64,000 nt of DNA. It comes from Lunularia cruciata (taxonomy: Eukaryota; Streptophyta; Marchantiopsida; Lunulariales; Lunulariaceae). Shown in pieces: positions 15,720 through 54,066 of the stretch (position 1 is the first letter of the stretch; the number at the start of each line of letters is the position of its first letter). The translations under genes and the position numbers were made by a program. The notes below the pieces were generated by a model. The model was not told the origin of the DNA and did no database searches. It saw only the letters and a program-made list of their open reading frames with translations. The stretch lies in contig OX419761.1 in assembly GCA_948567375.1 (NCBI GenBank), forward strand, positions 37,238,243 through 37,302,242, read 5' to 3'.

Positions 15720-16030
15720 GGTTTAGGTAGAGGACATTCCCTTCGAGCAATGGATTTGTGCTCTCTAGGGTTACTGTTTGCGAAATTCTCAGAATCGACA
15801 ATTCCCGCTTTGCATATGAATTCGAGCTGTCTCCCACACTCTCATTCGGCAGATTGACACTCTCAAGATTGCCAAATGCTGGAGAAGTTTCTCCGATTGT
15901 TTGAAGTTTTTAATAACTGGTGTTCTTGTTCTAAATCCGACTGCTTTCCGGCTCAGGCGCTTCTTGTCGAGCATTGGCTTACCTGAGAGGTTTGCACTGC
16001 AAGCTTCTGTCCATCGGGTTACAGCACAGA
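15720..16030. promoter_or_regulatory. Upstream region of the small membrane protein gene
   Basis: About 300 bases upstream of the minus-strand start at 15719. No clear TATA box; no other feature seen. Confidence 0.2.
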
Positions 16031-17009
16031 AGACATTGACTATCGGATACAGATCAATCGATAAATAAGTAAAGAGATTCTTTTCCAGAAATGGATAGAA
16101 ATGATAAATTGATCAATTATTGATTTAATTTAATATTATTATGTATTTTTAAACTATAGTAATATTTTGAAATTTTCAGTAAACTAAATTTTAATTTTAT
16201 ATACGAACTAAATTATTTAAGTAAATAGAACAGTTTTTTTAAATGAAAATCAAAGAAATTACTTATTCCCATTAGAAGCGAGTGTCGAAATAACCTTCAC
16301 ATGAATACATAGGTACAAAAGCAGACTCCAATAGAAAACATATGGGAATACCCCATCAAGCCGTGCAGTACATCTAAACATAAATTAGAAGGAAACGGTT
16401 TTTAACAGAAAAGCTCAAATAATAATTCATATAATAAAAAATCCAAAGAAAAGATAACTTAATTGGTTTATGAGATATGAAAAAAATAAGTTAAAAGAAA
16501 AAATATCATGTGGAAGTAATTCAAATAAAGAAATACAAGAAAAAGATAAATTTTGTACATAATACTTAACATTAAATATTTGCCATTTAAAGATTTTTCT
16601 AATTAGTGTTTGATTGTATATCCTCATAATTTCTATTTCTTTCCTCATTTTGGGCCATTCCTTTTCTTTTCTTTTCTTTTCTTTGTGTAGTGTATTTCTT
16701 CTTAAATCCTTCAAACTTCCTTGTGTCCTTTTTTTTTTTTTTGGTCTGTTTGTCATCTTATTGGTCTATTTGTCATCCATTGCATAGTTTTAAATTCTCT
16801 TTCACTTACCATTCACTGCATAAGTTTACATCTTCTTCTCTTTGTAATAAAATTATTGGAAATTACTTTAGAGATTTTGATCAAGATGTATATCACACCT
16901 TTTGCTATTAATTTTCTAATGTGGATAATGATGTATATTAACTAGGATTTTATATTAATCAAATCTAAGATAAGATATCCTAAACCATGTATTAAATGTC
17001 CAAATAAAA

Positions 17010-17010
17010 C

Positions 17011-17059
<49 letters not shown>
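17010..17059. repeat. ATT/TTA trinucleotide microsatellite
   Basis: About sixteen uninterrupted TTA/ATT repeats. Confidence 0.95.
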
Positions 17060-17297
17060 GACGACGACGTATTTTACATGCTAAATTAGCAATCCAAAAG
17101 CAAAGAAACTATGATATATGTGTACTCTTATATCATTCTTTCATTTTATGTTTACAATAACCTTCATACAATATTGAGCATAGATAACAAAATTATTATA
17201 CAAAGCTAATTTTATTTTTTTTACTAACTATTATTCTTTTGAAGTGGAGTATGTACAAAGTTGATGATAAACATAAATTAAACTTGAAGTAAGTGAT

Positions 17298-17334
17298 TTT
17301 GATGTTCAAATACCTTGAGTATTTGAACATCAAA
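17298..17334. repeat. Perfect inverted repeat, 16-bp arms, 5-base loop
   Basis: Left arm 17298-17313 TTTGATGTTCAAATAC, loop 17314-17318, right arm 17319-17334, exact complement. It lies inside the AT-rich block. Confidence 0.85.
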
Positions 17335-20300
17335 GAAAAATATAATATAATAGTTTATCTTATAAATAATTACTTTTAGTGAAACTATTCTATGGTCATT
17401 GGCCAAAGAATAAATATAAGTTCCTTTTTTTCACATTTTTCAATTTTAATCATATATTTTTCAAATTTAATCATATACAAAGTTTAAAACAATCAAAAAT
17501 ATTTGGATCCAATATTTATATTATATATATGTATACCCCCTAAGGAGTGGAGTATTATGCTCACCAACCCTTAATATTCTTTTCTCAAGAATTATAAATT
17601 TTAACTCTATTTTCCTTTTCCAGATCATAATAAAAAATCTAGTTTTGTAGAAATATGCATGATAACTTTACTCTTATACTCTTAATGAATCTATTATATA
17701 TGAATGACACCCAAGCTTGTCTTGAGCATAGAAGACCTATATTTATTTCAACATATTTCTCTTTTATATAACTTATTTATAATTTATTATAAGATATTTA
17801 GCAACAAATATGACAAATTTATACTCAAATCCGCCTCTTATTTACACTCTCACAAGACTTTTTGTAATACTCCAAGGACAAGAGAAGAGGGAAAACACCG
17901 ATTACACACTCAATCTTTGGTGCCCCAAAGGAGCACCTTCGCTTTATTATATAGACAAAGAGGATCTCCTCCAAGGAAGCTCCACCATAGGATTAGGCAC
18001 ACAGATAAGTGACATGTCAGCAAGCTCCACCCTTGGATTATTTACTTGGATGGGTGACATGTTGGTCTAGGTCATATCTGGTTGGTCAAACAAGCTTTGA
18101 CCAAAGAGAATCTTTTAGGGAATCTTCCTATAGGAGTCTCAGAATCATGTAAGGTATCATTGGAAAGCTCTCGACGAGACAAACCAGGGGAGAGGAGGCC
18201 AACATTTCCTCCATCCTAATGGAGGGGGAAAAATGTGCACATTTTCAAGGCCTAATTCATCAATTTAGGCCTTCGAAATTGCCTTTAAAGACTTCAGTCT
18301 TATTTTGATTCCTACTCTATTAGTAAAAGTCCACTTTTGGTGATACCTCTTTCTGATCAGTTTAGTCCATCATGTGTAACACTTCCAAATGTTACCAAAC
18401 CAATTCTCACCTTTAAAGCATACATCTAGCTATTGGTTCTAAGGTTCTCAAGTATATTTCGATTTCTGCTCTATTAGTAGAAGTACTCTTTTGGTGATAC
18501 TTCTATCTAATCTATTTTGACTATTATGTATAACATCATTCTAGATGTTACCAAACCAAATTTCACATCTAGATCATATGGCTAGCTTTTGGTATTACAC
18601 TTTTGCATTCTCATTTTTATTATTATCCGACGTGGTAGCCTCTTTTGCTTTCACTTTTGCCAAATAGACACTTCATATAATCTGATTTGGAAAATGAACT
18701 ACTTAGATGAAGCATATTTTAAAGTCAAAAGTCAAATATTAATCATTTTCATGAAATTTAGGATCTAATTTCTTGAAAATAAGTGATATAAAAATAAAAT
18801 ATTTTATATTACTAAAGTTAAGAAAGTTAATAAGATAGTTAAATCTAGATTATGCATAGCATATTATAGAAGAAAATTCTCCATCAGCATTTGGGTTTGA
18901 ATCTATGAAGTCAAAAAAATAGGTTATACTCTATGGTATGTCTAAGAAACAGTTGATATATTTTTTCTAGATTATTTTATCATGCCCAAGGGTTCTCAAT
19001 AAAATTTATATAATGTAAATTTATTGATAATTTATTTCAAGTTTTTGATTTATAATTAAAGGTTACATGTACATATTTTCTATTTAATTTGAGATGAGCT
19101 CTATGTAAAAAATGAAGGTTTTCTTCAAGAGACCTATTACCAGAAGTAACATTACTATATTATACCTAGATAAATAATCAATCATAAAAAAGGCTTTGCT
19201 GCATTTGAACTCTTATTTATTATGATTAGTAATATTTATAATCATTTCCACCATAAATTAGAAGGATAACCAATGCTAACCTAGTTGCAATAATCTTATA
19301 TAATGAGTGGAAGAATAGAAAAATCTTCATCACTTGTAATAGTGAAAATACTTGTTAATCCACTAAAATCCTCTACTTGCATAAAGTCATAAATTATAAA
19401 GAGAAGATGGAATAAAAACTCCATTATATATATATTGATAGATATAAATTTCTACTTTTTCTTTTATTTAACAAAATCATTCATCTTATTTTAGAATTTT
19501 AAGAACCAATAAATTTTTTATATTTAGATTGTCATGACATTTGTAGCATCAAAGCTAGTTTGTTAGGATGCTAGAATGATAGTTTTGGCAATCATCGTGT
19601 TATAAGTAGGTCCTAAAGGCCTACTTAAAGGCGATTAGATATGGAATTAGGTCAAGTGATCACACTATTGAGCTATTATTATTTGCACCATCAAATGCGG
19701 TTAGGGTTGGATTCTTGGCAGCTCAAGTAGTGATATACCTTGAAATGCAACTCCAAAGAGCTTACTTCTTCTATGTTGAGCCTTTGAGCTCCTCATTATG
19801 GTGGACAAAGGTTGGCAAACATTTGGATTCTCTTAGCTAGAATGGGTGTGACTTGACTATGTGATCAAGGCTTGTTGGCAGTTTTATATTGAGTGTTGAG
19901 CACTACAACATGTGGCCTGACTATGTATTGGTGAACATCAATTGGATTTTCTTAGTTAGCTAAATACATGTGGCTTGACTATGTGATCAAGTTCTATTGG
20001 CAATTTTTATTGAATGTTGAGTACTATTATGTGTGACTTTACTATGTGAGCAAGGCATGTCGGTAGTTTATATTGAGTGTTGAGTGCCTTTGAGCTCCTT
20101 GTGGTGGTGGATAGAGACTGATGAGCATAAATTGGATTCTCTTAGCTAGAGTGGATGTGGCTCTACTATATGATAAAGGTATGTTACCAATTTATATTGA
20201 ATGTTGAATGTTAAAATTTGGGGCCAAGTGTAAAATTGGGGTCGGAATTGGGAACCCATCCCCTCAAGTTATGGATTTGGATTCTTTTAGCTAGAGTGTG

Positions 20301-28006: not shown

Positions 28007-31000
28007 ATGGGGAATAGGTACAGTAGGAATGGAGATCCAGCTATGCTTATAAGTTCCCCTCACATGCTGGAGGATCAGGGTTGTATTTCCATAAAACGCT
28101 GGCAGAGCATCAATCTTAAGGGTCTGGAGGAAGCACGCAGGCCCCATGATAATTCACAAACATATGATTTGTCTATAAGAAATCTTACTTACAAGGTAAC
28201 TATGGACTTGCGTTGAGCTTTCTGTGGTATTCAAAGATTGTCCAGAATCCGTGTTCGTAACTTCACTAATTTCTTGTGGGCTCATGCTTTAGGTGCGAGT
28301 GAAAGAAAAGGAGGGAAAAACGGAAGAGAAAATCCTTCTCAACAACATTAGCGCAAGGGCAAACCATGGGGAAATTTTGGCCGTAGCGGGGCCGTCGGGA
28401 TCATCCAAGTCAACTTTGCTGAATGCCCTTGCTGGGCGGATTGACAGGAAGAGTCTCAGAGGTTCAATTCTTGTAAACGGGAATCCAGTTGATAAGAACT
28501 TCAAACGCATATCCGGCTATGTCATCCAAGATGATGCTTTGTATCCTTTGTTGACTGTTCGAGAGACGTTGCTGTTCAGCGCTAGGCTGCGTTTACCATC
28601 TACTTGGACGCATGATCAAAGAATGGCACGAGTTGAAGTGATTCTAGCAGAACTCGGGCTTCAACTTTGCGCGGACACTATGATTGGAGATGAAACGGTA
28701 TGTGCTATGAAAATTTGACCAAAGTATATAGATTGATATCCGAAGTTACATGACCTGCATCAATAATGTTGCAGTGATCGTTCCCCGCCTTCTTCGAGCG
28801 TCTGCCAAGTTCAATGTGAAGAATCTGTTGTAAGTTTATGTCTTGAATGATTGCGGTAGATGTAACTATTAGATTATTTGCACTATAATCCGCCCAAGGC
28901 TAGAAGAGTGGCTTTACTTTTTCCCCGTCTTCCTGTATAGGTGCTGGCACAATGCAGGATACGAGTCGTTGGGCTGGGAAGACTCCCTTCGTGGTTAAAC
29001 TCATCACAGTCAGTGGTAGGTTGATCCCTCCAGGAAATCTAAAGTTGTGTATACTGAGGTATATCTAACACACCATTTGTTTGCTCATCAGGTTCGAGGA
29101 GTTTCTCGTGGGGAAAAAAGGCGAGTGTCTATAGCAGTGGATCTTATGCATGACCCAGCTGTACTTCTACTTGATAAACCCACAACAGGATTGGACAGTT
29201 TCTCAGCCTATCAAGTCATGCAAAAGCTGCACACTTTAGCTGAAATTCATAGCCGCACGGTGATTATCACCATCAATCAGCCCAGCTATGATATTCTCGA
29301 GCTTATTCATAATACGCTGCTCTTGATCGATGGCAACGTCATCTTCAGTGGGCATCACTCGGCATTGGTCAACTATTTCAGCGACATTGGTTACAACATG
29401 CCTGAATATGTATCTTTCTCCCACTTTACTATTTGCACAATGTAATTCCATCTTATTGCAGCATCTGTGTACACTCTGCATCGTTCTTCCTAGATAATGG
29501 ATTGCGGAAAAATGTCGCATCAGTTTCCTCCATGAACACCATAGGAAAATAGATCCCTTCCCTTCCTTGAGTCAAATTGGATACTAACAAGTACAATAGT
29601 GGCAAGTATGATGAATGTTGAAGTCAAGTTTACATTGTAATTTGCGCATTGTAATTTGCTCAATTTCAGCCCGCTTCAGCATTCCTATTCAAGTTCCTAT
29701 AGGCATGCTCTAGTATAATCATGCTTATATAGCTGCCGTCGCTGACTCTTCATTCAAGACTATGAGTCAAGCTGTAAGCGTCAGTTTTCCAGATTTTATC
29801 TCCAGCTTCCAGGATTTCTGAAATGCTAGTCTTGTACTCCTAGTTTCACGGCACCGCGTCCTGCTAGTGTTGTTCTGATCCCAGGTCTCATGACTGACTC
29901 TAATCTGGATTTATTATAAAATATCTGAGATGTCTAGTTTTGAGAAAACACCGGCAGTTAGTCTTGCTCGTCCGTCCAGGACGCTGAGTCTATGGCAGGC
30001 TCCTACTAATGAATGACATCTCTCTAAAGCAAGAGTAATAAACACAGTGAGAATGTGCATGAATGCACATATATCGTTTATCGACGTAGGAGGGTAGAGC
30101 AATTTGAAGCGGTATCAGTAATTGAATTGGACCTACTTAGCGCTGGGACCCGCATCAGAGGATGCGAATCAATGGCATAATTGTATCGATCAGCCTGAAA
30201 GACTTAGCAATGAGAGAGATTTCCACTCGTTGGTAAGAGCCTGCCATAGCCTAGGGAGAGGGATTCATTTGGAGAAAGTGTAACTCTTGCAACAGCTACT
30301 CAGAATTTAGCGAGCATTCTATCCAGGTTAATCGTAAGGAGCTTGCTCTTCATAAGCCAATTGGGATCTTACACTGACATGTGCAACGGCTATCCAGTTG
30401 TTCTCCTTAGTACGCACCGTGGTGCTGAGATTAGACACATATTCTGTGGGCAAAGTCTCTTAACATCGACTTTCCTACTTTTACCGTCTGTAGCTCTTCT
30501 ACATCCTCGGTTGCTCTCTTTTTCGGTCACTATCTTGAAAATCATGAAGTCCTGAATTAACCTGAATTGACCTCGCCGATTGATGATTTGATTTAGGTAA
30601 ATCGGTAAAGATGGTTTCTGATTAAAGAAATCATCATTTCATCAGTTAAGAACAATTACCAGTGAAGCAAATTCTGGTTGCATACGCAGGTCAATCCGCT
30701 GGAGTACGCCTTGGAGACGATGCAAAAAGTGAAGGCCTCTTCCGTTGGAGTACAGCAACTTCTCGAACTCAAGGTGCAAAGTTCCACTCTCAATCCTCCC
30801 TCCACGTCTATCAAAATTGTGCATGCTAACGTCACTTCTCCACTCCGATTTGCTCTGACGTTAAGCATCTAATATTACACGAAGTACCCACTCGAACTCG
30901 CTGACAACATGACATGTTAATCAGACATGCTATGCTTGAATTTTAGGCCTATCGATTGTATTCTAGTTTCAGGAGTGATCGATGTGCACTCGCTGTGATC

Positions 31001-33224
31001 ATGACGCCAGTGAGCAGTACATATCACGGTGATCCCCACAAATTTGTGAAGAGGGGAAATCCTGCTTGTGGACTTGAGACAATTGGTTGCCTGCACTGAG
31101 ACGGTCATCGTTTTGTCGTCACGAATGTGTTGTCTGACGGCTAACTCGTTAAGTTGGAATAAAGGAAGCATTGCGGAAGTGTCGGATGCTTGAAAGACTG
31201 AGACAATCTAGGAACGGCCATGCCTGTAGGTTGTAAAGGAGAAGGAGAAAGTTCTGGATGGACAGGCTGCGAGAGAACTAGACGAGGAGGGTACTGAAGG
31301 AGAGGTTGACGAAATGACATTCGCAACAAGCTTCCGCTCCGAAACATATGTGCTTGGCGAGCGTAACATCACGTTGATGCTGCGTAGCAGACCGTTATTC
31401 TTTGCAAGAATGGCAGTCCTGGTATGCTATCTTCTCTGAACTAAGCTTCGCATAGTTTTTCCGAGCATACGCAGCCACCTGCCACATCATGTGAACAGTA
31501 ATCAAGTGGTATGATGCCTTCGAGATAGTTTTTCTCATGGCTAATAGCACCTTGAAAGTCTAATTACTTCACTGTTGTGACCTCGTCCCGTAAGGTCCTG
31601 TAAGATGTGGAGAGAGTTGGAAAACTGAATCCACATCAATTTGGCCTCGAGCCGAGATAATGAACAATCTGCTACAACTTCCCACCAACAGTCGGCAGAT
31701 TCTAGATCAATCCCACATTATCTTCTATTCTTCCCTCCCTGTGTACGATCGAGAGCTCCATTTCCAGTCTTTAGCGTATCACTCTGATAGCGTTTCCGAC
31801 CGCACCGATAACGATAATTAGTAGACCACTAACTCAGAAAAGGGGGAATACGTAGAGGCTGTTATCATTGTTCTGAAGGTCTGTATGTCCGATACGTAGA
31901 ATTGTCGCTTCCGAAAGTGCTACTTCACGAAATTGAAATTGAAATTGATCTTGAATTGCGCTGCTCAACGGTCCTTGTAAACTGTCACCGATTCTTTACT
32001 CGCTGTTACTTTCGCAGATGTTAGGCGGACTGTTCACCTCCTCGGTTTTCATCAACTCGGAGTACGACCTGGAAGGCATGAAGAAGCGGCAGTCGATGAT
32101 CGCCTTCCTTCTAGCTTACTGCATCTTCACAACCGCATACGCTCTGCATCTTTTGCTGCAGGAGCGCGCCATATTCATCCGCGAGGCCTCCAGAGGCGCC
32201 TACCGCCCCGCCTCCTTCGTGATCAGCCAGACGATAGTTCAAATTCCTTTTCTGTTTCTGCATGCTGTCTTCTTGACCCTGTCCACTTACTTCATAGCCG
32301 GCTGGGCCAACTACGTAGGCGCAATAAGCTACTACATCTGGATGTGGTTCTTGGTTCTCACCTTGGCGCAGTCCATGGCTTCTTGCTGCGCGGGCTGGAT
32401 CCCTAACATCATCATCTGTCAAGCAGTTTTCTCCGCTGTAACATCCTTCTTTTTCCTCTTCTCCGGCTTCTTCATTCGCAGGTGCGTCTCTTTTACCGTC
32501 GAATGCACTTTCATTTCTGGCGTGTTTCTGAACGCTGAACTTCGCCTTCCTCGTGTCTCGGCTCCTATCGGTTCATACATTTTCCTGTTTCCATGGGAAG
32601 TTATAATACTCCATATGAATCATTTCTTATATGACAGTGAATTCATTGGAAGTGTGAATAACCTCGGCATTTCTCATAAGTTTAGGGTGTCTAAACCCTA
32701 AACCCTCAAGGCTTGAACTTCATATCTTCGCCAGCTGGATTTGACTATCATGCCATTGACATGACCGTACTTTCCCTCTGTACAATCGGAGTTTGCGTTC
32801 TAAAGCATTAGTTGTGTAAACGATTTAGGAAACAATCAAGGAACTAGACGAGACTCTTTGTAAAGGAGTGATGTTGAATGACTGTAGTTGATCACCGTGT
32901 GGTTGGGGTGCGAGATAACATGCCAAGAATCCTCTTTGGTCCAGGAATGCAATTCCCAAGGGGTGGCTGTGGTTACACTATTTATCGATCTTCAAGTATC
33001 CTCAAGAGGGCTTGTTGGTGAACGAGATTACGAGTTTGTGGAACACGAATTGGGCCGGCGCAGACACAAACATCAACTTCTATCAAGTTCTGGAATTAAA
33101 TGATCTTCAACATGTAAGTCTTATTACTAATGTGCTCGTAATGACTTTCTTTATAGTGGTTTATAGAGGACTCTGGTATCTGGCCTTCTTGAAAAGTGCA
33201 AGAGGCATTCAAAAAGTAATGTAA
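28007..33224 (+). CDS. ABCG (white-brown complex) half transporter, 643 aa, 7 exons, degenerate ATPase motifs
   Basis: Exons: 28007-28195, 28293-28697, 29092-29409, 30690-30773, 31230-31421, 32018-32481, 32945-33224; GT-AG introns, phases matching, one open frame of 1932 nt. The ATG at 28007 follows an in-frame TAG at 27992; ATGs at 28043 and 28064 are alternatives. The exon 5 start could also be 31266. Domain order is the ABCG order: nucleotide-binding domain (about 55-290), then six likely membrane segments (about 370-643) including RPASFVISQTIVQIPFLF, FSGFFIRR and HYLSIFKYP. The Q-loop (YVIQDD) and D-loop (GLDS) are intact, but Walker A reads GPSGSSKST (Ser101 for Gly), the signature VSRGE (Arg204 for Gly), Walker B LLLDKP (Lys227 for the catalytic Glu) and the H-loop INQPS (Asn260 for His). 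It should bind or hydrolyse ATP poorly unless paired with an active half. Substrate unknown. Confidence 0.9.
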
Positions 33225-34590: not shown

Positions 34591-34749
34591 GCACTCATGT
34601 AGTTCGATCGCACAGTGGTCAGTTCTCCTGAAGTTCTGTCAATCAGCTGCTCCAGTAACTTTGCAACGCGATACACCAGCTAAATTTCTTCTGCGCGTTG
34701 GTGAGTTCAATTCGCAACTCCTTGACTCGCTTTCAATCCAGAGAAAGGA

Positions 34750-35396
34750 ATGGCACTCTCTCGCCGTGATGGATCCGCACGATCGAACAGCAGCAGTATC
34801 TTCGATCCATTTTCAAGGCTCGAAAGCATGTTCGAGCCTTTTGAGCTCTTCGAGTCATTTCCGGCTCGCTCGTTTGCACGAGAGGCGAACGCAATGGCAG
34901 GTACGCGCGTGGACTGGCAAGAAACGAAGGATTCTCACGTCTTCAAGGCTGATCTGCCAGGTAGATTTGACTCCCTCTTTGTCCATTTCTGAAGGCCTCT
35001 GAAAGAAGCAGATTCTGATATGCTGTCTTGAATGCTTATCGGTCGGAAAGTATAGGAAGAAGGAAAATCTCGTTTGCATTCCATAGAGACCGTAGTTTTG
35101 ATCTGACTGTACGCTTGAATAAAAACTTAGGCTTGAAGAAAGATGAAATCAAAGTGCAGCTGCAAGATGATCGAGTCTTGGAGATTAGTGGGGAGCGGGC
35201 AAAAGAGGAGGAGGTAAAGACGGATACTTGGCATCGAGTTGAAAGGTCTCACGGCCAGTTCTTGAGGCGATTCAGATTGCCAGACAACGTGAGAACTGAT
35301 CAGATGACTGCCAAAGTTGAGAATGGTGTGCTCACCGTGACAGTTCCAAAAGTACAGCAACCAGCGCCGGACGTTCGTACCATCGACATCGCCTGA
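34750..35396 (+). CDS. Class I cytosolic small heat shock protein (HSP20), 158 aa, one intron
   Basis: Exons 34750-34960 and 35131-35396 with a 170-base phase-1 intron (CAG/GTAGAT donor, TTAG acceptor), giving 477 nt. The N-terminal arm is Phe- and Ser-rich with an FDPF motif (about 18-21), as in class I sHSPs. The alpha-crystallin domain starts at [17 protein letters not shown] (consensus region II) and continues past the intron with [27 protein letters not shown], then the consensus region I block [10 protein letters not shown]. The intron falls after DLPG. Length and motifs are normal, so the product should be an ATP-independent chaperone that forms oligomers and holds unfolded proteins in the cytosol. 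A promoter with heat shock modules precedes it. Confidence 0.95.
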
Positions 35397-38328
35397 GCAA
35401 TGAGCAATCTTGCGCCTGCAGGAGGATGACGCCGATGCTTCTCTTCCTTCTGCATATACCCTGAATTATAATGTTTATGAGTCAAAAGTTTCAAGTTATA
35501 CCACGCTATGTCTTAATTACATCGAAAGAGTTACGAGTGCGCTACTTTCAGCGATGCAGAACTTGGGTAAAGATCCCATCTTATCACGGATCGTCAAGAT
35601 ATTCATAGCGTAAGCTCTGGTTGGAGTATGTCCTTGTTCATGTAATAGACCGGGAGTCGATTCCTTCAGTTCAGATTTGGATTCTCAGCTTATGTGAACT
35701 GTATATCTGTAATAAAGACTCATCCGGGAATCCACATATGAAGGACAATTTCGACACTTTTCTGCGTCGATGCATATTTGCGACCCATTCAAAACAATCT
35801 ACGATTGTCTGGTCACAGCGCGCACCATCTGACCCTGACAAGCTTGTTTTTTAGGCCTCAAAGGAACAACTGTAGATTGTATTGTGCACCAATTTGTATT
35901 ACATACTTTTTGCGGCTCAAGTGCCAGTAGAACTGTTCAGTTACGAAACCTTCGTCTCTTTCCATATTTTTTTTCACATAGTAAGGCAAAACACACATTT
36001 GACAAACCTTCGTCTCTTTCCATATTTTTTATCACATAGTGAGGCAAAACACACATTTGACAGTCGCATTCTTAAAGTGAACTCCTGTGATCCCTGGTAA
36101 AACCTTGCTCTCGCATACATAAACAGCACTGCATGGCAAAAGTAAAAAGCAGGTCAAAGCTAGTGGGATGTTTAACCAACATTGTTCTCAGTTATTTTGA
36201 CGTTCTTACCGCACGACATATTTTGCTTGAATAGTGGACACGAATGTTCATAGTCTCCGGAGTTGCTTGCTGGTTTGGTACACAGTGACGTTTGGTCACG
36301 TATGGGAGATCCTACATCTCCGCTAAGGAAGATAAGGAAAAGGTCCGTACAATTCTTGCAACCTTCCTGCATTAGTTGGTTCCCCGTGGTGAACCACTTT
36401 CTGCAAGCCAAAGCTGCTTAATCTTACGTCGGCCGTTCCTTGTACCCGCTCTGCAGCATCTGTACACTCTGAAAACATCAATCAGATGTTGGACACACCA
36501 CGGAAGATGGTGAGTTGTTTGTTTAAATCACTGGGAAAACTGGATATGAGGGAAGCTTCTAATCTGCTTTCAATAGAATCAGTTTTATCAGTTTCCAGCT
36601 CGCTTCAGCTCTCAAGCTCCTCATCATTCCTTGAAACTCCTCGTGCGAGCCAAATAGTATGAACAATTGACCTCAGTCCCCGAACACGGGGTTTCTCCTT
36701 TCCACATACTGTAGTTGTTGCTTGAGTTCATAGCAGCGAGAAGTAACAACGAGAGCGGAACAAAATGGGAATAGTGGACCCTTAATATAACTTGCCTTTC
36801 CAGACATCACAGAGCAACAGGAAAAGCTACACGACATTCAATCAACGAAGATTATTACTTTTTGCACTACTAGTTCAGGTGAGCACGGTAGTGACTTCAA
36901 AATCTGAAAGATTAACAATATAAATATATAATATAATAAACATATAATATAATAATATAAATTCTATTGATGAATGATACTCGGGATGGTGAAACACAGA
37001 TTTCCGCTCTATCTTTGCACCCAATGGTTGGGTATGAAGATAAAAACAAGCAACTTCCTATTGGGTACAAAGACGAAAATAGGGAGATTCAAGTTCTGAA
37101 AAAAGAGAAAAATTATTGATTGATGCCAATGGTGGATGGAAGAAAGAAAGCAGCAGTATGTCAAAAGAGTGAAGTGAGTTCTTAATGTGGACCCGCCAGT
37201 GAGTGATTAATTCTTCTTCGTCGACTTCACTCAAGAAAGAACGCTTGGAGTGAACAAGTCTGATTCGTAACGGATATGCTTACCGCGAAAGAGCTGCAAA
37301 TCTGTGGAATGAACCCTTCGAAACCTCTTCCGAGGTGTAATTAATAGATATCTCTCAGATTGGATTTTAGCTTTTTGAACCCTGATTAGGCTCGTACTAA
37401 TAACATCTGAATACGATTTTCCTTCATTTCAGTTTCAGCTTGGAGATCTAGTGCACCGAGGGTAGCTAATTTAGCATAACTGAGCTGTAAATCTGATTTA
37501 TTGGCGAAGTCATGCTACTTTACACTAGAGCAAATAATTTCGCTGGCGAGGATGGCAATATCCCTCGTCTACTACGTGCAAATTTGCTCAAGGGTGAATA
37601 GTATGAAACCCAAACAACAAAGCATTCATGAAACCTTGGAAAGAGATCTTCAGTAACTGGAGTAGAAAACTAGGGTACAAAGTGCTGACATGCATCAGGT
37701 GGACTTGCAATCTCAAGTTCCGATCATATCTTATTATAAAAGGACGTCTGAACTGCATCGGGTGTGTGACACTGGTCGGTTACCTGTCAAAAATATTCCT
37801 TACTGCTCTGCCAAATCTATTCTCTTCCTTCCATTTTCTGTCAGTACCCATTTCATCTCATTTCCAGCAAGTTGACACTCTAGTTCCAGGGTATTCATAT
37901 TATCTTACTGCAGGCACCATCAGCGGAACTGGTCATTTACAATATTCAAAGGACAAATATGACATGAAAAGCGCCAGAACATCTATGTCGTCCGTTCACA
38001 AATGACAACACAATAATATCAAATCTCAATAGAACTCACAAACACCGTCGCAGGCTGGCAATACAGGAATCGAAAAACTCAGTAACATATAACCTGAAGA
38101 AACGTACCACGATGAAATTTCGCCAGCTGACAAGCGTACAACTAGGGTTGACATCAGGGGTCCTAGCATCCAAACGGGGCCAAACGCCTCCGATCTTTGA
38201 AGGAAAGATCTCTCTTGATATAAATTTGAGCTTATCCTCAGCTGATATACTTCAGCAAGTAAAAGTTTGCTGTGGAGCCCTGGTCCCCCGGAGACGTGCC
38301 TTAGCACGTCTACATCATACATTGAAGA
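35397..38328. other. Intergenic region without a recognised gene
   Basis: Contains the 3' flank of the heat shock gene (AATAAAG near 35710), a 58-bp tandem duplication at 35945-36062, and an AT-rich simple stretch near 36918-36963. Open frames such as 37628-38005 have no recognisable content. Confidence 0.5.
35945..36062 (+). repeat. 58-bp tandem duplication
   Basis: Two nearly identical units, both with CCTTCGTCTCTTTCCATA and GGCAAAACACACATTTGAC, differ at only a few bases, so the duplication is recent. Confidence 0.9.
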
Positions 38329-39498
38329 TTATTGGACTTGCCTGGATCTGGATTTCTCAACCTTAAAAGGAGAACTCGAATATGATAACGACGCTATACT
38401 AACAGCACCCGCTAGAGCAAGCAGTCCAAGGATAACCCGCGAGTCATACGCTCCTTCAGCAGGCTCAAACTTCGCTGCATTTAGTGGATACCCTGCAGAT
38501 GCAGCGACCCCGTTCTTGGAAATAAGATCTTCTTCTGGCTCCACATCTGTCGTTTCACGTCTCCTTGCGATCACACCATCAGCATACATTTGCATTGATG
38601 CACTAGTATGCTTCACTTCCATAACAGATCCAAAGAAATCTGTAACCAAAACCTTATCAAGCTTCCTGGAGAAGAGGTCACTACGGTAATACATGTTTGA
38701 ATCAAGCAGACTTGGATCATAGGTTTGCAGAAGACTTTGAAGAGTCGTGTTTGAAAAAATGTCCAGATTCTCGAAAAACTGGAGTGTGTAATACGTGAAT
38801 CGATCCACCACAGTTACTCCCACATCCGCATCGAGATGGTGAGAGTATGAATTTTGCCCCTTCAAACTGCTGCCAACTCCGATCACCCCTGGCGAGTACA
38901 ACTGAGAGTGGAGCGTTGCAGCTTGACAAGTATCAACCATCACCAACAACTCTCTATATCTCTTCTTTTCGTGCATTTGAGCGAAAGCATCTGCCAGATC
39001 GTTACTCTGTACGTCTTCCGCATCCTGAAACTTCAAAAACTGATCACCGCCATGACCAGTCATGTACAACAAGATGTTGCTATTCTCATCAGTCAGCAAT
39101 CTCTTCGAGCGTGGGACTGCTGCGTCGTGCCGACCTGTCAGCAAACGCAGGAAATTTTCCACCGTCACTTCATAGCCTCTGTAATCCACTTCTACATTGT
39201 CCCCATACAGATTAAGGCGATGATCCTCGTTGTTGAAAACCTGCGCTGGATATTTGTTTCTTGCATTACAGGCCATATCATCGGCAAGCATCAATATGAT
39301 ATGATCATCCGGAATCCCTAAACGCTTTACAGTCCGATAAAGCGACAGAGTATTCGCCATGTGACGGTAATTAAACCAATACCGAGAAGTGCACACCAGC
39401 ACGGCCCAATTATTAGTGTGCGCAGGTCCTATAGTTGCTTCACCTCCAACCGTTAGAACTAGGAGGGTAATTGCGAGAATTCCTGTGAACGAAGCCAT
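38329..39498 (-). CDS. GPI8: GPI-anchor transamidase catalytic subunit (GPI8/PIG-K), 389 aa, single exon
   Basis: A complete uninterrupted frame from ATG at 39498 to TAA at 38331-38329. This is the catalytic subunit of the ER GPI transamidase, a C13 (legumain-type) cysteine protease that cuts the C-terminal signal of proproteins and joins them to GPI. Visible features: signal peptide (1-21), [18 protein letters not shown] (about 29-46), catalytic His149 in MTGHGGDQF and Cys191 in [10 protein letters not shown], the conserved block [19 protein letters not shown], a TDFFGSVM block, and one C-terminal membrane segment (about 354-372). Length is normal for plants (about 390). The lack of introns is unusual beside its intron-rich neighbours. 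A TATA-like TTTATATATG lies at 39570-39561, giving a short leader. Confidence 0.96.
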
Positions 39499-39560
39499 CC
39501 CCCAGTCTCACCAACTGAAAAGGACTAAAACCAAAGACAAAGATCCCTATACCATCAACT

Positions 39561-39570: not shown

Positions 39571-40443
39571 TGCCCCTTCCCTGTCGTAAACAAGCAATCC
39601 TGTGCGGGAAAAATCCTTAAACCTCAGTCCCTGTTATATTTGACCAATTCCCAATAACTTCGGCCAAATACTTGTCAAATCTCCTACAACTCAACAATTT
39701 ATATAGCTAGTCCCGAAGCCAAATTCATAATTGACCAAGATAGCCAATCAGCAACCCGTACGACGTTCCAATGTCCTATAAATCTGTCTTTGTCCACTTG
39801 ACATCAAGGGAGACGTCGCAACATTCGTCCCTGGCTTAGGAGGACCATTCCATCGAGCTGTCCACTCTAATTTTCCTTCACAAGATTTTCACATTTGTGA
39901 AAATCGTATCCCTCAACTAGTCCAGCACACGCCTTCCAGGACCTCATCCCTAGTCCTGTAACGTGAGCTCCGACGTTCGATTGCATCGACCAAGCACGTA
40001 ACCCTGTAAGATTGTTGCTTCGAATCTCCTCATTCTCCTCTCCACTACGATTGTAACGATGCCCAAGCTTCCTCTTCGTTTAATCGAACGCGCCACAGTA
40101 CTGTGGTCCATCGCAGTCCTCCGAGAACGATTTCGGAACTCACAGCGTAGATTACTCCTGCAGTTTCTTCGTTAATCTCCTGATTAGGCAACTGTGATTA
40201 ACCGTTAATCCCGAAGACTTATACACATGCACAGATAGCATAGTGACAAGCTTATAAGAGAACTAGACTCGTAATTTAGATCTCAACCAAAGCCAATCTA
40301 CTCTTCAAAATGCATGTCAACTCTCGAAAGTTAACGCAACATTTTGGTCAATTTACTTGCCCAAATTCACTGCAGTTAACCCCGCGAGGTATTAGAGGTC
40401 ATCATAAGTTAACAACTTCCACACTTTCCTGGAGGCAACACGA

Positions 40444-40573
40444 GATTAGAATCCATCTTCACCCTAACGAAGAAAACTATACGAGTAAATTAGAACCCAA
40501 AGAGATCAAGCATTGGGCGTGTGTGCTTGATCTCTTCGAGCAACTTGGGTTTTTGCTTGATTGGATTCTAATC
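40444..40573. repeat. Nested foldback
   Basis: Outer arms GATTAGAATCCA (40444-40455) and its complement (40562-40573); inner arms AAGAGATCAAGCA (40500-40512) and its complement (40524-40536) around an 11-base loop; a middle pair AACCCAA/TTGGGTT near 40494 and 40545. The left side has about 38 unpaired bases against 10 on the right. Confidence 0.75.
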
Positions 40574-41999
40574 CTCCTGTACGAGAACAGATTTAGCAAA
40601 TATCAAAGTATGATTTGATCACACTAACTCACAAATGATTTTCCTTGTTTGATTTAAAACTAATCGAGTGGTCCCCACTGTTGTGTTAAAAGGTGTAAAA
40701 TCACTGATAAGATTTAGTCGTGCGTATGTTGTTACTCCGATCGATATATATGGTTAGAATGGTTAGAATTTAATTATTCCCGTAATTCTTTAATAATTAC
40801 CTAGGTGTACAATGAAAGCGAAGAAAGTACAAGTACTTTGAAAGGATTGATTGATCCACTCTCATTTATCTCCTCTCATCTTCTCTGTTCCCTGGTCTTC
40901 TCACAATTTTCAGAAAATATTTTAGTAATTCTTGTTATAAAATCACTGAATTATGGTTTCCATTTCTTTCTCAATAACTTATTATTCTACTCAATTATAT
41001 ATCCAAGTAGTTTAACAGTGGTGAAGTGAAGTAAGTTTCATTAGCACTTCATATTACAATCGCATCTTCTTGCGAATGCCTAACTCCGTTTATACCAAAA
41101 GTAGAAAAAAGCAAGTGCATTATTCTAATTTTCGATATTGGCAGAATTCATTTCTTGATGCAATGGAATCTAGCTTTAAATGTGTGACAGTCGTTGCCAT
41201 TAGAAAACTCGTGGAATCACTTAAGCAAAGATGGTAAGATATCATAACAACGTATAGACAACAAGTGTTTTTTTCTTTTTTTTTCCTTTCCTATGTGTGT
41301 TAACCTTAAAGTTTTTCCTTTAAGGGTAAGAACCTCCATAACGTGTAATACAATGAGCACAACAAATCTTTTTGTCGTATTTCTACAGTCGGACTCAGAT
41401 ATTTGTATAATTTTGTACATATATAAACTACAAAGAAGCTTTTTATTTTATTATTTTACGTGCAGACTTAGAAATACAGCTTTATGGTTTCTTATGGCTT
41501 TTAAGGCAGAAAAAATCTCGTCATTATATCCTTGCTTGATAAGATCTATATATGGAACTATGTGATCTGTGATTGTACGTTATATTATATGGAATAAAAA
41601 TTATACAAGACAATCATATCTTATATTATTCACTAGGTGAATTGTGGAGGGTTTACAACTTATGATCAAAGTACATTATTTTGCACATAAAAATGCAAAT
41701 CAGTGTATCAGTCGTACACATAGTCAGTGGATAATTTGGTGAACAAGTTACAAGTACAAACAATTGACAGCAACCAACTTCACTATCGAAGTTCGTTATC
41801 GATACACACCTTTCTAAAACACTTATTTCCATCAACATTTTACTACTTAATTGGTACACAACCTCCAAGTGAACATTAAAATCTAAGGCTGAGGTAAGAG
41901 AAAAGCTCATTGAACAAATATTGTCAAGTAATAATCATTTACAGTCACACATTCAACTCTAATTATATTATTTAAACAATTTGTGTTTACCCAAAACTT

Positions 42000-42085
42000 C
42001 TGGACTTTATCCTGAGAAAGAACTTCAATTCAAGTCTGGAACTTTATCCTGAGAAAGAACTTCAATTCAAGTCTGGAACTTTATT
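42000..42085 (+). repeat. 37-bp tandem repeat, about 2.4 copies
   Basis: Units begin at 42000, 42036 and 42073 and share CTTTATCCTGAGAAAGAAC and TTCAATTCAAGTCTGG; the third is partial. Confidence 0.9.
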
Positions 42086-52000: not shown

Positions 52001-54066
52001 TGAGAGCAGGAGCACTCGATTTCCGGAAACATTTAGAATGTTCGGTTAACCCAGTAGCTTCAGACTAAACGTACAGGTCAGGCTATTCAACGCGCAAAAT
52101 GCTTCTCTCTAATTAGTTTACTAGTACTAGACGGTCAAGAACACAGTCACGATAGTGTAGTTCCGTCGGAATTTCAGAGTAGTAGTAGTGATCACTAGTA
52201 TGACGCATTATCCTGTGACTATGCTATTAACCAGTTTCTCTGAAATTATACACAGATTGTGCAAATTATGCTAGATGCAATTGCGAATTTCTGTAAATCT
52301 ACAGCGAAGGAATGAACTTCCAAGCTTGCAAGAGTAAGAGGTATCAACCCGTGAAAGACCAGGAAGTCATCATCGAAAATATGACTTCATTGGACTTACC
52401 ATCAAATAATGTAGGCGTCTGGAAGAGCATTCCGCATCGTCTCCTCACTGAAACGACACTCTGCTTGGTAATATCTTCTCCATCAAGAAAAATTGTTCCG
52501 GCAGGAGGTTCCCACAAACGATTGATAGCCCGTAAAATGGTCGATTTCCCACTCCCACTTGGACCAATTATTCCCACAATTTGCCCCGCTTGAACGTGTA
52601 GAGAGACGCCCACAAGAATATGATTCCCGTCCTCCGTGAACTTGTCCAGACCGTCTATGCTGATTTTAGGGTGGACTACCTTGACAGTGGTATCAGGTAT
52701 GGCCAGAAGATGTTTTCTCGCTTCTTCCTCGCCTCCTACACAACATAGCACGAAGTACTCAGAAAAATGCCAATCTAATCTGACCATCAATTAAAGCATT
52801 CCCTCCATTACCAACGGAATGGCCCTCATCTGCTTCAAACAAACGTAAGCTTGAGGAGATTGTCACTAGATAGAAATCTCGTTTCAAGAGCAAAAGTTAT
52901 GACATCAAAGACATAACTCATGGTATGAGGAAACATTAAATTGAGCACGTCAATCACCCTTGACAACCATAGAAAGCTCAATCACCGGGCAATCCCGAAC
53001 TGGTAATCATCCAATAATCTGCGTCTCCTTTGGCTCTCAACATCGCAAATACGGAGCAACAAGATTATTAGCATCCCTTCTACTATCTTCTGTAGTGACC
53101 AGAAATGCCTCCTCTGCGCCAGAATTATAACAAATACTAACCAGCAAATTTTCCATAGTCGGTTTTGTAATAGCTACCCACATTGGTTATATTTAGCTCT
53201 TACAATAAGGTCCACGGCTTACATCCGCTCGAGGCCAGGACCATCAAAGAACCAACTACTCCTTCCTGGTTGCATAGCTCTTCTTTGCAAATGAGCAAAG
53301 CTCATTTGGAGTACTGTTATACAAAACTCGTTTACGAGAACTCGGTTTCACACCCACATGGATGGAGGGACTCTTCGAAGTTTATATGCACACTGAGCTT
53401 CTTCAATAGCTCGGCATAAGAACTCACAGCGCGGTATGTGGTCATCCAGCAACTACCTCTTTGCGGCAAGTTCGTTTGCTTTGTACATATCCGGCTGCTC
53501 TAATATTGTGATGAAACAGTGAGGATCTATGACTGCTGTCTCTCGTTTATAAACCCTTGACTTGCTCGAATGCGACTTCTGCTCGACACCGTAGGAGACG
53601 TGACGTAGGAGCAAAGCATAGGCAGCTCAATGGTCGTTACCGCTCATAATGTGGCTACTCACCAATTCTTCTCTCACGTATAGCTAAAAGTCTGCAAGAT
53701 CACACGCTCTAAAAGGTGCAGGATAGCCAGGAATATTGAAATTCAGGGAAAGAACTTTCAAAATAGTGCTATAGGCCAGAAAGAACTCCTATGCTCCAAC
53801 TAAATTGGTTCAGTGCGTTTGGCGAAAGTGAATACGAGTTGTTCCCTCATACACTGATCGTTAGATACCCCAATCCTCTGTATAACATTAAGGACTTATC
53901 AAGCTGAGCGTGCTGTCACAGAAGCGAACGTCTACAGAGAAATTCCAAGGGCTAGCGAAACAAAACATTGTCGATTGAACAAAAGCCAAGAGAACACCAA
54001 ATCCTACAAAGCTTACAGATGAAGAAATGAACGAAAAGAAGAGGAACCTGAAGAACGAATCGCCAT
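49005..54066 (-). CDS. STAR1: STAR1/ABCI17-type ABC transporter ATP-binding protein, 265 aa, four exons
   Basis: Exons in coding order: 54066-54048 (tentative, 19 nt), 52735-52400, 51830-51643, 49259-49005; phases match and the total of 265 residues is close to the about 263 I recall for the Arabidopsis protein. It is a soluble nucleotide-binding domain: Walker A GPSGSGKST, Q-loop FQTPTLFDG, signature SVGQAQRVALARTLANEPE, Walker B LLLDEPTSALDP, H-loop FVSHS, all intact. In flowering plants STAR1 pairs with the membrane protein STAR2/ALS3 and is needed for aluminium tolerance; the partner is not in this window. The first exon is chosen for its phase and length only. The last intron is 2.4 kb and carries two retroposon copies (49464 and 49670). 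Confidence 0.85.
49464..49544 (-). mobile_element. Short retroposon, family A, with 13-bp target-site duplication
   Basis: Flanked by GTATATTTGCATA (49451-49463) and GTATGTTTGCATA (49545-49557), one mismatch. The fixed end reads GGCGACCACATAG here, diverged from GGCGACCGCGTAGG. It lies in the last intron of the STAR1-type gene. Confidence 0.75.
49670..49993 (+). mobile_element. Family A retroposon copy split by an insertion
   Basis: The left part (49670-49735) begins ATATTTTAGGTGCAATAGG and reaches TTAGCCCATTTTAC; the right part (49926-49993) resumes at TTTATCCTTAC and ends CCTACGTGGTCATCTTTCC. About 190 bases between them, containing a direct repeat of ACCGG(G)TTACTTG, are absent from other copies. 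In the last intron of the STAR1-type gene. Confidence 0.6.

Follow-up and report, generated by a model that had tools for sequence, protein, structure and literature searches.

Degenerate ATP sites are established within the ABCG subfamily of ATP-binding cassette (ABC) transporters (PMC7756502, PMC8421411). Each site is shared between two nucleotide-binding domains (NBDs), with Walker A, Walker B, the Q-loop and the H-loop coming from one and the signature motif from the other (PMC7756269). In ABCG5/G8, a degenerate signature (ISTGE) in ABCG5 meets a degenerate Walker A in ABCG8, which makes one of the two sites inactive (PMC7756502). Pdr5 has its altered Walker A, Walker B and H-loop in NBD1 and its altered signature in NBD2, so that one of its sites is dead and the other live (PMC8421411, PMC7756269). 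Degenerate ABCG sites are usually read as a silent site beside a working one. What, then, is to be made of a chain in which both faces of the ATP site are altered together? Such a chain is encoded on the plus strand at 28007-33224 of the window, the whole stretch of 64,000 nucleotides analysed here (Lunularia cruciata, contig OX419761.1, positions 37,238,243 to 37,302,242). The gene appears to be an intact, long-diverged half-size ABCG gene, and we tentatively favour, with a little less than even confidence, its retention as a hydrolysis-incompetent subunit.

The case begins with the catalytic motifs. In Walker A (GPSGSSKST), Ser101 replaces Gly (codon TCC, 28404-28406); in the signature (VSRGE), Arg204 replaces the first Gly (CGT, 29107-29109); in Walker B (LLLDK), Lys227 takes the place of the catalytic Glu (AAA, 29176-29178); and in the H-loop (TINQPS), Asn260 takes that of the His (AAT, 29275-29277). 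Active ABC ATPases are recognized by the catalytic Glu, the H-loop His and an SGG(E/Q) signature, and here these three places are occupied by Lys227, Asn260 and Arg204. Kept in the same domain are Walker A Lys102 and Ser103, the Q-loop Gln142, Walker B Asp226 and the D-loop GLDS (231-234), together with Ser203, Gly205 and Glu206 of the signature. The four codons are just as a preliminary description of this DNA had given them, although its count of four hits on catalytic residues has to come down to three. Within the clade, Arg204, Lys227 and Asn260 are private to the gene, each a single base away from codons present in paralogues. Ser101, on the contrary, is shared with the paralogues L040 (GPSGASKTT) and L043 (GRSGSSKTT), which despite this Ser keep SGGE, DE and HQPS; because these otherwise canonical loci carry it too, it would not seem to be a mark of lost function. 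All three Walker A Ser codons belong to the TCN box (TCC, TCG and TCG), each two steps from a Gly codon, which suggests that Ser is likely a shared old state, Gly having been regained in the sister locus L039, with two separate gains as the alternative.

The gene carrying these changes shows no sign of breakage. Its seven exons join into 1932 nt encoding 643 amino acids (aa) and a stop codon, all six introns are GT-AG, and neither an internal stop, a frameshift nor a broken splice site was found in this model, which upholds the single-frame, normally spliced structure proposed in the preliminary description. A spliced alignment returns identical exons, a consistency check only, the query being the gene's own protein. 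Exon 1 (28007-28195) encodes the N-terminal tail and the first NBD strand (aa 1-63), exon 2 (28293-28697) Walker A (aa 96-104) and the Q-loop Gln142, and exon 3 (29092-29409) the signature, Walker B, D-loop and H-loop. The NBD ends in exon 4 (30690-30773, VNPLEYALETM), after which come the linker and the start of the membrane domain in exon 5 (31230-31421), the main part of that ABC2 domain in exon 6 (32018-32481), and its end with the C-terminus and stop codon in exon 7 (32945-33224). Pfam places ABC_tran at aa 79-230 (93.7 bits, cut-off 25) and ABC2_membrane at aa 371-578 (114.8 bits, cut-off 26.9), a single NBD followed by a single membrane domain (TMD) in one chain, the half-size ABCG (WBC) order. 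Domain order, exon layout and phylogeny identify the gene, at the level of its sequence, as a half-size ABCG (WBC) transporter. A full-size ABCG of the PDR type with a degenerate first nucleotide-binding site was considered and excluded, as 643 aa with only one NBD do not make two NBD-TMD halves. The C-terminus aligns with those of the paralogues; the N-terminal tail does not reach the length of the in-frame sequence that lies 5' of this exon in six paralogues, where the start codons are putative. The predicted N-terminus, MGNRYS (28007-28024), reads like a candidate N-myristoylation signal. Intron 6 contains a short telomere-like run (32681-32706, TTTAGGG and AAACCCTAAACCCT).

Among known structures, the nearest is that of Arabidopsis ABCG16 (8wtm, 8.6e-103), the best of 512 distinct matched chain sequences. 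It is likewise a half-size plant ABCG with the same domain order, but its aligned chain has a canonical Walker A Gly-Lys, signature, Glu and His. With the human sterol transporter ABCG5/G8 our gene shares half-size organization and degenerate motifs, the ABCG5 signature ISTGE being changed at the very position of Arg204 (PMC7756502). There, however, the damage is split over two chains, ABCG8 as aligned here keeping SGGE, Glu and His while its Walker A is degenerate (PMC7756502); here a single chain bears it, and the residues lost include the catalytic Glu and the His. The NBD1 of Pdr5, a full-size ABCG transporter of the PDR type, is likewise changed on the Walker side, with Asn for the catalytic Glu, Tyr for the H-loop His and an altered Walker A (PMC8421411, PMC7756269). 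Yet each Pdr5 chain has two halves, its altered signature (LNVEQ) sits in the other half so that one site is canonical, and it has lost the Walker A Lys that our gene keeps. No plant or half-size pseudo-ATPase ABCG protein was described in the titles and abstract openings of the literature searched. Two further sequence searches covered other organisms and are silent on plant orthologues: exon 6 gave 42 pattern matches, 0 confirmed, in a prokaryotic collection (genome_contigs), and exon 3 gave 18, again 0 confirmed, in a viral one (viral_contigs).

These comparisons bear directly on one explanation, that the chain is the degenerate member of an asymmetric heterodimer with one working ATP site, of the ABCG5/G8 or Pdr5 kind. 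Precedent within the subfamily and the ABCG5 signature speak for it, as do the six paralogues that share its exon layout and are candidate partners. The genes for ABCG5 and ABCG8 are neighbours, whereas no second ABCG locus adjoins this gene among the genome-search matches listed. In both known systems, the impaired Walker side and the impaired signature belong to opposite chains or halves, which keeps one site canonical, and here they share one chain. In a homodimer, both ATP sites would be affected on both faces; in a heterodimer, one site would lack Glu and His, and the other would have to use the Arg204 signature VSRGE. With the Walker/H-loop face and the signature face both altered on a single chain, no dimer containing it is predicted to have a fully canonical site, and a layout with one silent and one working site would be ruled out unless Arg204 is tolerated. 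The likeness to the degenerate site of ABCG5/G8 dimers drawn in the preliminary description thus does not hold, and we regard an asymmetric pump of this type as unlikely.

How unusual are such changes in this genome? In the 566 Mb assembly (74 contigs), 20 ABCG-type loci besides the gene, drawn from search listings that are themselves lower bounds, were excised, modelled with a GT-AG dynamic-programming spliced aligner and compared motif by motif. The signature Gly, the catalytic Glu and the H-loop His are all kept in 18 of these 20 (the exceptions being L050 and L057), and catalytic changes of this kind are uncommon in the genome. The paralogues L039 to L044 share the exon layout of the gene, apart from one additional small linker piece in the L039 and L043 models, and all six keep SGGE, Glu and His. 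The sister locus is L039, at 48% identity with support of 98/98 in a 13-row tree and at 47% with 96/93 in a 9-row tree, the bootstrap values being 98 and 96. No near-identical copy of the gene appears among the genome-search matches listed, where the best non-self matches by identity reach 60-63%, over single NBD exons.

This last result also concerns another explanation, namely that the altered codons are errors of sequencing or assembly. Each private change lying a single base from paralogue codons would suit it. It would nevertheless take three independent errors, all on catalytic codons, in the midst of a clean frame with clean splice sites and motifs, and with no near-identical copy among the matches listed that could have been mixed in. 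We consider such an origin highly improbable.

The survey brought to light several other loci worth recording. L042 and L044 (G000:C1, at about 3.02 and 2.96 Mb) are young duplicates in the same clade, 60 kb apart, differing at 11 of 276 shared four-fold sites. L050 (G000:C1:34530500-34534500) is a divergent ABCG-type locus with an open frame of 895 aa and an odd Walker A (GGNKSGKTT); its signature is unrecognisable in the alignment, and the Walker B Glu is present. On another ABCG branch, L057 (G000:C6:73098500-73105500, around 73.10 Mb on C6, minus-strand spliced model) has all catalytic motifs altered (GPRESGRSS, GLNDGE, LDDP, TFRQPS), with Walker A Lys, Glu (changed to Asp), His and signature all lost. 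Its model has no stop, although the aligner can disguise bad stretches as introns, and within a clade of five rows it departs at 36 of 117 NBD and 56 of 118 TMD columns. L057 looks broadly decayed or fast-changing, and the window gene is far closer to its own relatives.

Turning to age, 63-78% of four-fold sites differ between the gene and each of eight paralogues, so that synonymous change is saturated and an ordinary ratio of nonsynonymous to synonymous rates (dN/dS, or omega) cannot date it. Judged from its sequence the gene is old and long diverged from its sister. Its terminal protein branch measures 0.96 changes per column, about twice the 0.5 of L039. The GC content at its third codon positions, 0.544, is close to that of the eight paralogues (0.489-0.542), its own introns being at 0.428. 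Taken together, the open frame, the paralogue-like exon layout, C-terminus and third-position composition, and the rarity of the catalytic changes in the genome would support a retained subunit.

Did selection act on this long branch? The preliminary description had suggested computing dN/dS in the two domains, and a branch model was fitted with a purpose-written GY94 script, using 531 gap-free codons and a fixed 8-row tree from which L044 was omitted; since several branch lengths lie at or near their upper bound, the omega values that follow are indicative only. On the gene branch, a free omega is preferred to an omega of 1, with twice the log-likelihood (lnL) difference reaching 24.6 for the NBD, 19.7 for the TMD and 38.7 for both. 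Neutrality over the whole branch is accordingly rejected in this rough model with saturated lengths. For the NBD, omega is 0.063 on the gene branch against 0.075 elsewhere, and freeing it brings no significant gain over a single omega (0.6), so the rest of this domain, outside the changed motifs, is not visibly relaxed under the model. For both domains the same comparison yields 3.6. Constraint through most of the gene's history, with some relaxation, is supported, on saturated data.

Several observations weigh against a retained subunit. The TMD omega of 0.156 is about twice its background of 0.081 (22.9 in the same comparison with a single omega), and fixing it at 1 on the gene branch gives a marginally higher likelihood than one omega shared by all branches (lnL -6886.9 versus -6888.4), though a lower one than a free omega. 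Long branches also occur among canonical paralogues (0.65 for L054 against 0.16 for L049), and because these too vary in rate, branch length alone says little about function. The saturation of synonymous sites also leaves the three private changes without a date. Furthermore, leave-one-out departures from otherwise invariant columns, counted in sets of 6 (the clade, L044 omitted as a near copy of L042), 8 and 12 rows, make the gene the loosest NBD row throughout, mostly outside the motifs, as general relaxation would. In the clade it departs at 16 of 109 NBD columns (3-12 in the five paralogues), in the 8-row set at 11 of 85 (others 1-9), and in the 12-row set at 8 of 63 (others 0-5). In the TMD it stands out only within the clade, at 14 of 70 columns (2-9 in the paralogues), and not in the wider sets (4 of 45, others 1-6; 1 of 27, others 0-4). 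The membrane half, described earlier as normal, is indeed complete and unremarkable in the widest set, but looser than its closest relatives. Catalytic columns, finally, show no significant excess among the departures (Fisher p 0.14-0.30): the wide set gives 3 of 14 catalytic columns against 5 of 49 elsewhere in the NBD (p 0.24), or against 6 of 76 columns over both domains (p 0.14), and the clade 4 of 15 against 12 of 94 (p 0.15), or 3 of 14 against 12 of 94 without the conservative T103S (p 0.30). Tested in this way, a preferential targeting of the catalytic site is not established.

The same figures would suit a recently inactivated gene, one from which selection has lately been lifted or much weakened, the catalytic changes being early chance hits with no stop or frameshift yet. 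Departures scattered across the NBD and, in the clade comparison, across the membrane domain too fit this account, as do the lack of significant catalytic enrichment, the single-base distance of each private change from paralogue codons, and the example of L057, broadly divergent with no stop in its model. To see how long a dead gene stays presentable, neutral drift was simulated on the coding sequence, with 1500 runs for each K (substitutions per site) and with odds uncorrected for the gene having been picked by its motifs. No stop arose in 51% of runs at K = 0.01, a figure that suits recent inactivation, then in 26% at 0.02, 13% at 0.03 and 2.9% at 0.05, the last share falling further with indels. 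Once splice sites and an assumed 0.10 frame-breaking indels per substitution were included, the frame survived in only 5.8%, 0.3% and 0.02% of runs at K = 0.01, 0.02 and 0.03. At least 3 of 16 catalytic residues were hit in just 0.5%, 3.3% and 4.5% of surviving runs at these three values. Under such simulated drift, an open frame seldom outlasts a neutral period much longer than 0.02-0.05 substitutions per site. Nor does inactivation explain the doubled branch length: K = 0.03 changes 39 of 643 residues, far below the excess over the sister of about 0.46 per column, and the extra change mostly accrued while the frame was kept. A short recent dead period, of up to about 0.02-0.03 substitutions per site, is possible and needs some luck; it cannot supply the branch excess. 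Recent inactivation is, in our view, nearly as likely as retention, though below even chances. The alternative drawn in the preliminary description, between a selected non-hydrolysing subunit and a very young pseudogene, survives on both sides, neutrality along the whole branch having been rejected. Selected pseudo-ATPase and recent loss are about equally likely.

If the gene is indeed retained as a hydrolysis-incompetent subunit, the protein would still be made, reach the membrane and dimerise with itself or with a paralogue, perhaps retaining ATP binding through Lys102, Ser103, Gln142 and Asp226. A dimer containing it should not pump normally. It would then serve for binding only, for regulation or, as a dominant-negative chain, for sequestration, and not as the inert half of a pump of the ABCG5/G8 type. 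If the protein is made, a subunit that may bind ATP and a partner without driving transport would be the most economical role for it. The more specific proposal that selection keeps the doubly degenerate chain as a regulator, as a dominant-negative partner of paralogues or as a nucleotide-gated binding protein is, in our view, rather doubtful. Should it be true, a selected subunit disabling both sites would be a pseudo-enzyme that works through the choice of dimer, and with it one could ask directly if ABCG dimers are of any use in the absence of hydrolysis; if the gene is merely young and dead, it illustrates ordinary gene-family turnover.

The remainder of the window holds other genes. Just 3' of the ABCG gene, on the plus strand, lies a small heat-shock protein gene (34726-35393), probably with one intron: the frame at 35019-35393 carries an HSP20 domain (85.4 bits), and that at 34726-34992, which has no Pfam match, looks by eye like the N-terminal part of the same gene. 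On the minus strand, an uninterrupted frame of 392 aa at 38332-39507 contains a Peptidase_C13 domain (147.5 bits), and resembles GPI8/PIG-K of the glycosylphosphatidylinositol (GPI) transamidase. Also on the minus strand, at 52347-52790, is an exon of a separate ABC ATPase; it scores 70.8 bits for ABC_tran, its Walker A (GPSGSGKST) is normal, and it looks like the STAR1/ABCI type. Base composition is even over most of the window, with GC of 0.41-0.47 in nearly all 2-kb steps other than the A+T-rich stretches at 16001-20000 and 40001-42000 (0.256, 0.313 and 0.345). A 58-base tandem duplication with 96% matches occupies 35946-36062.

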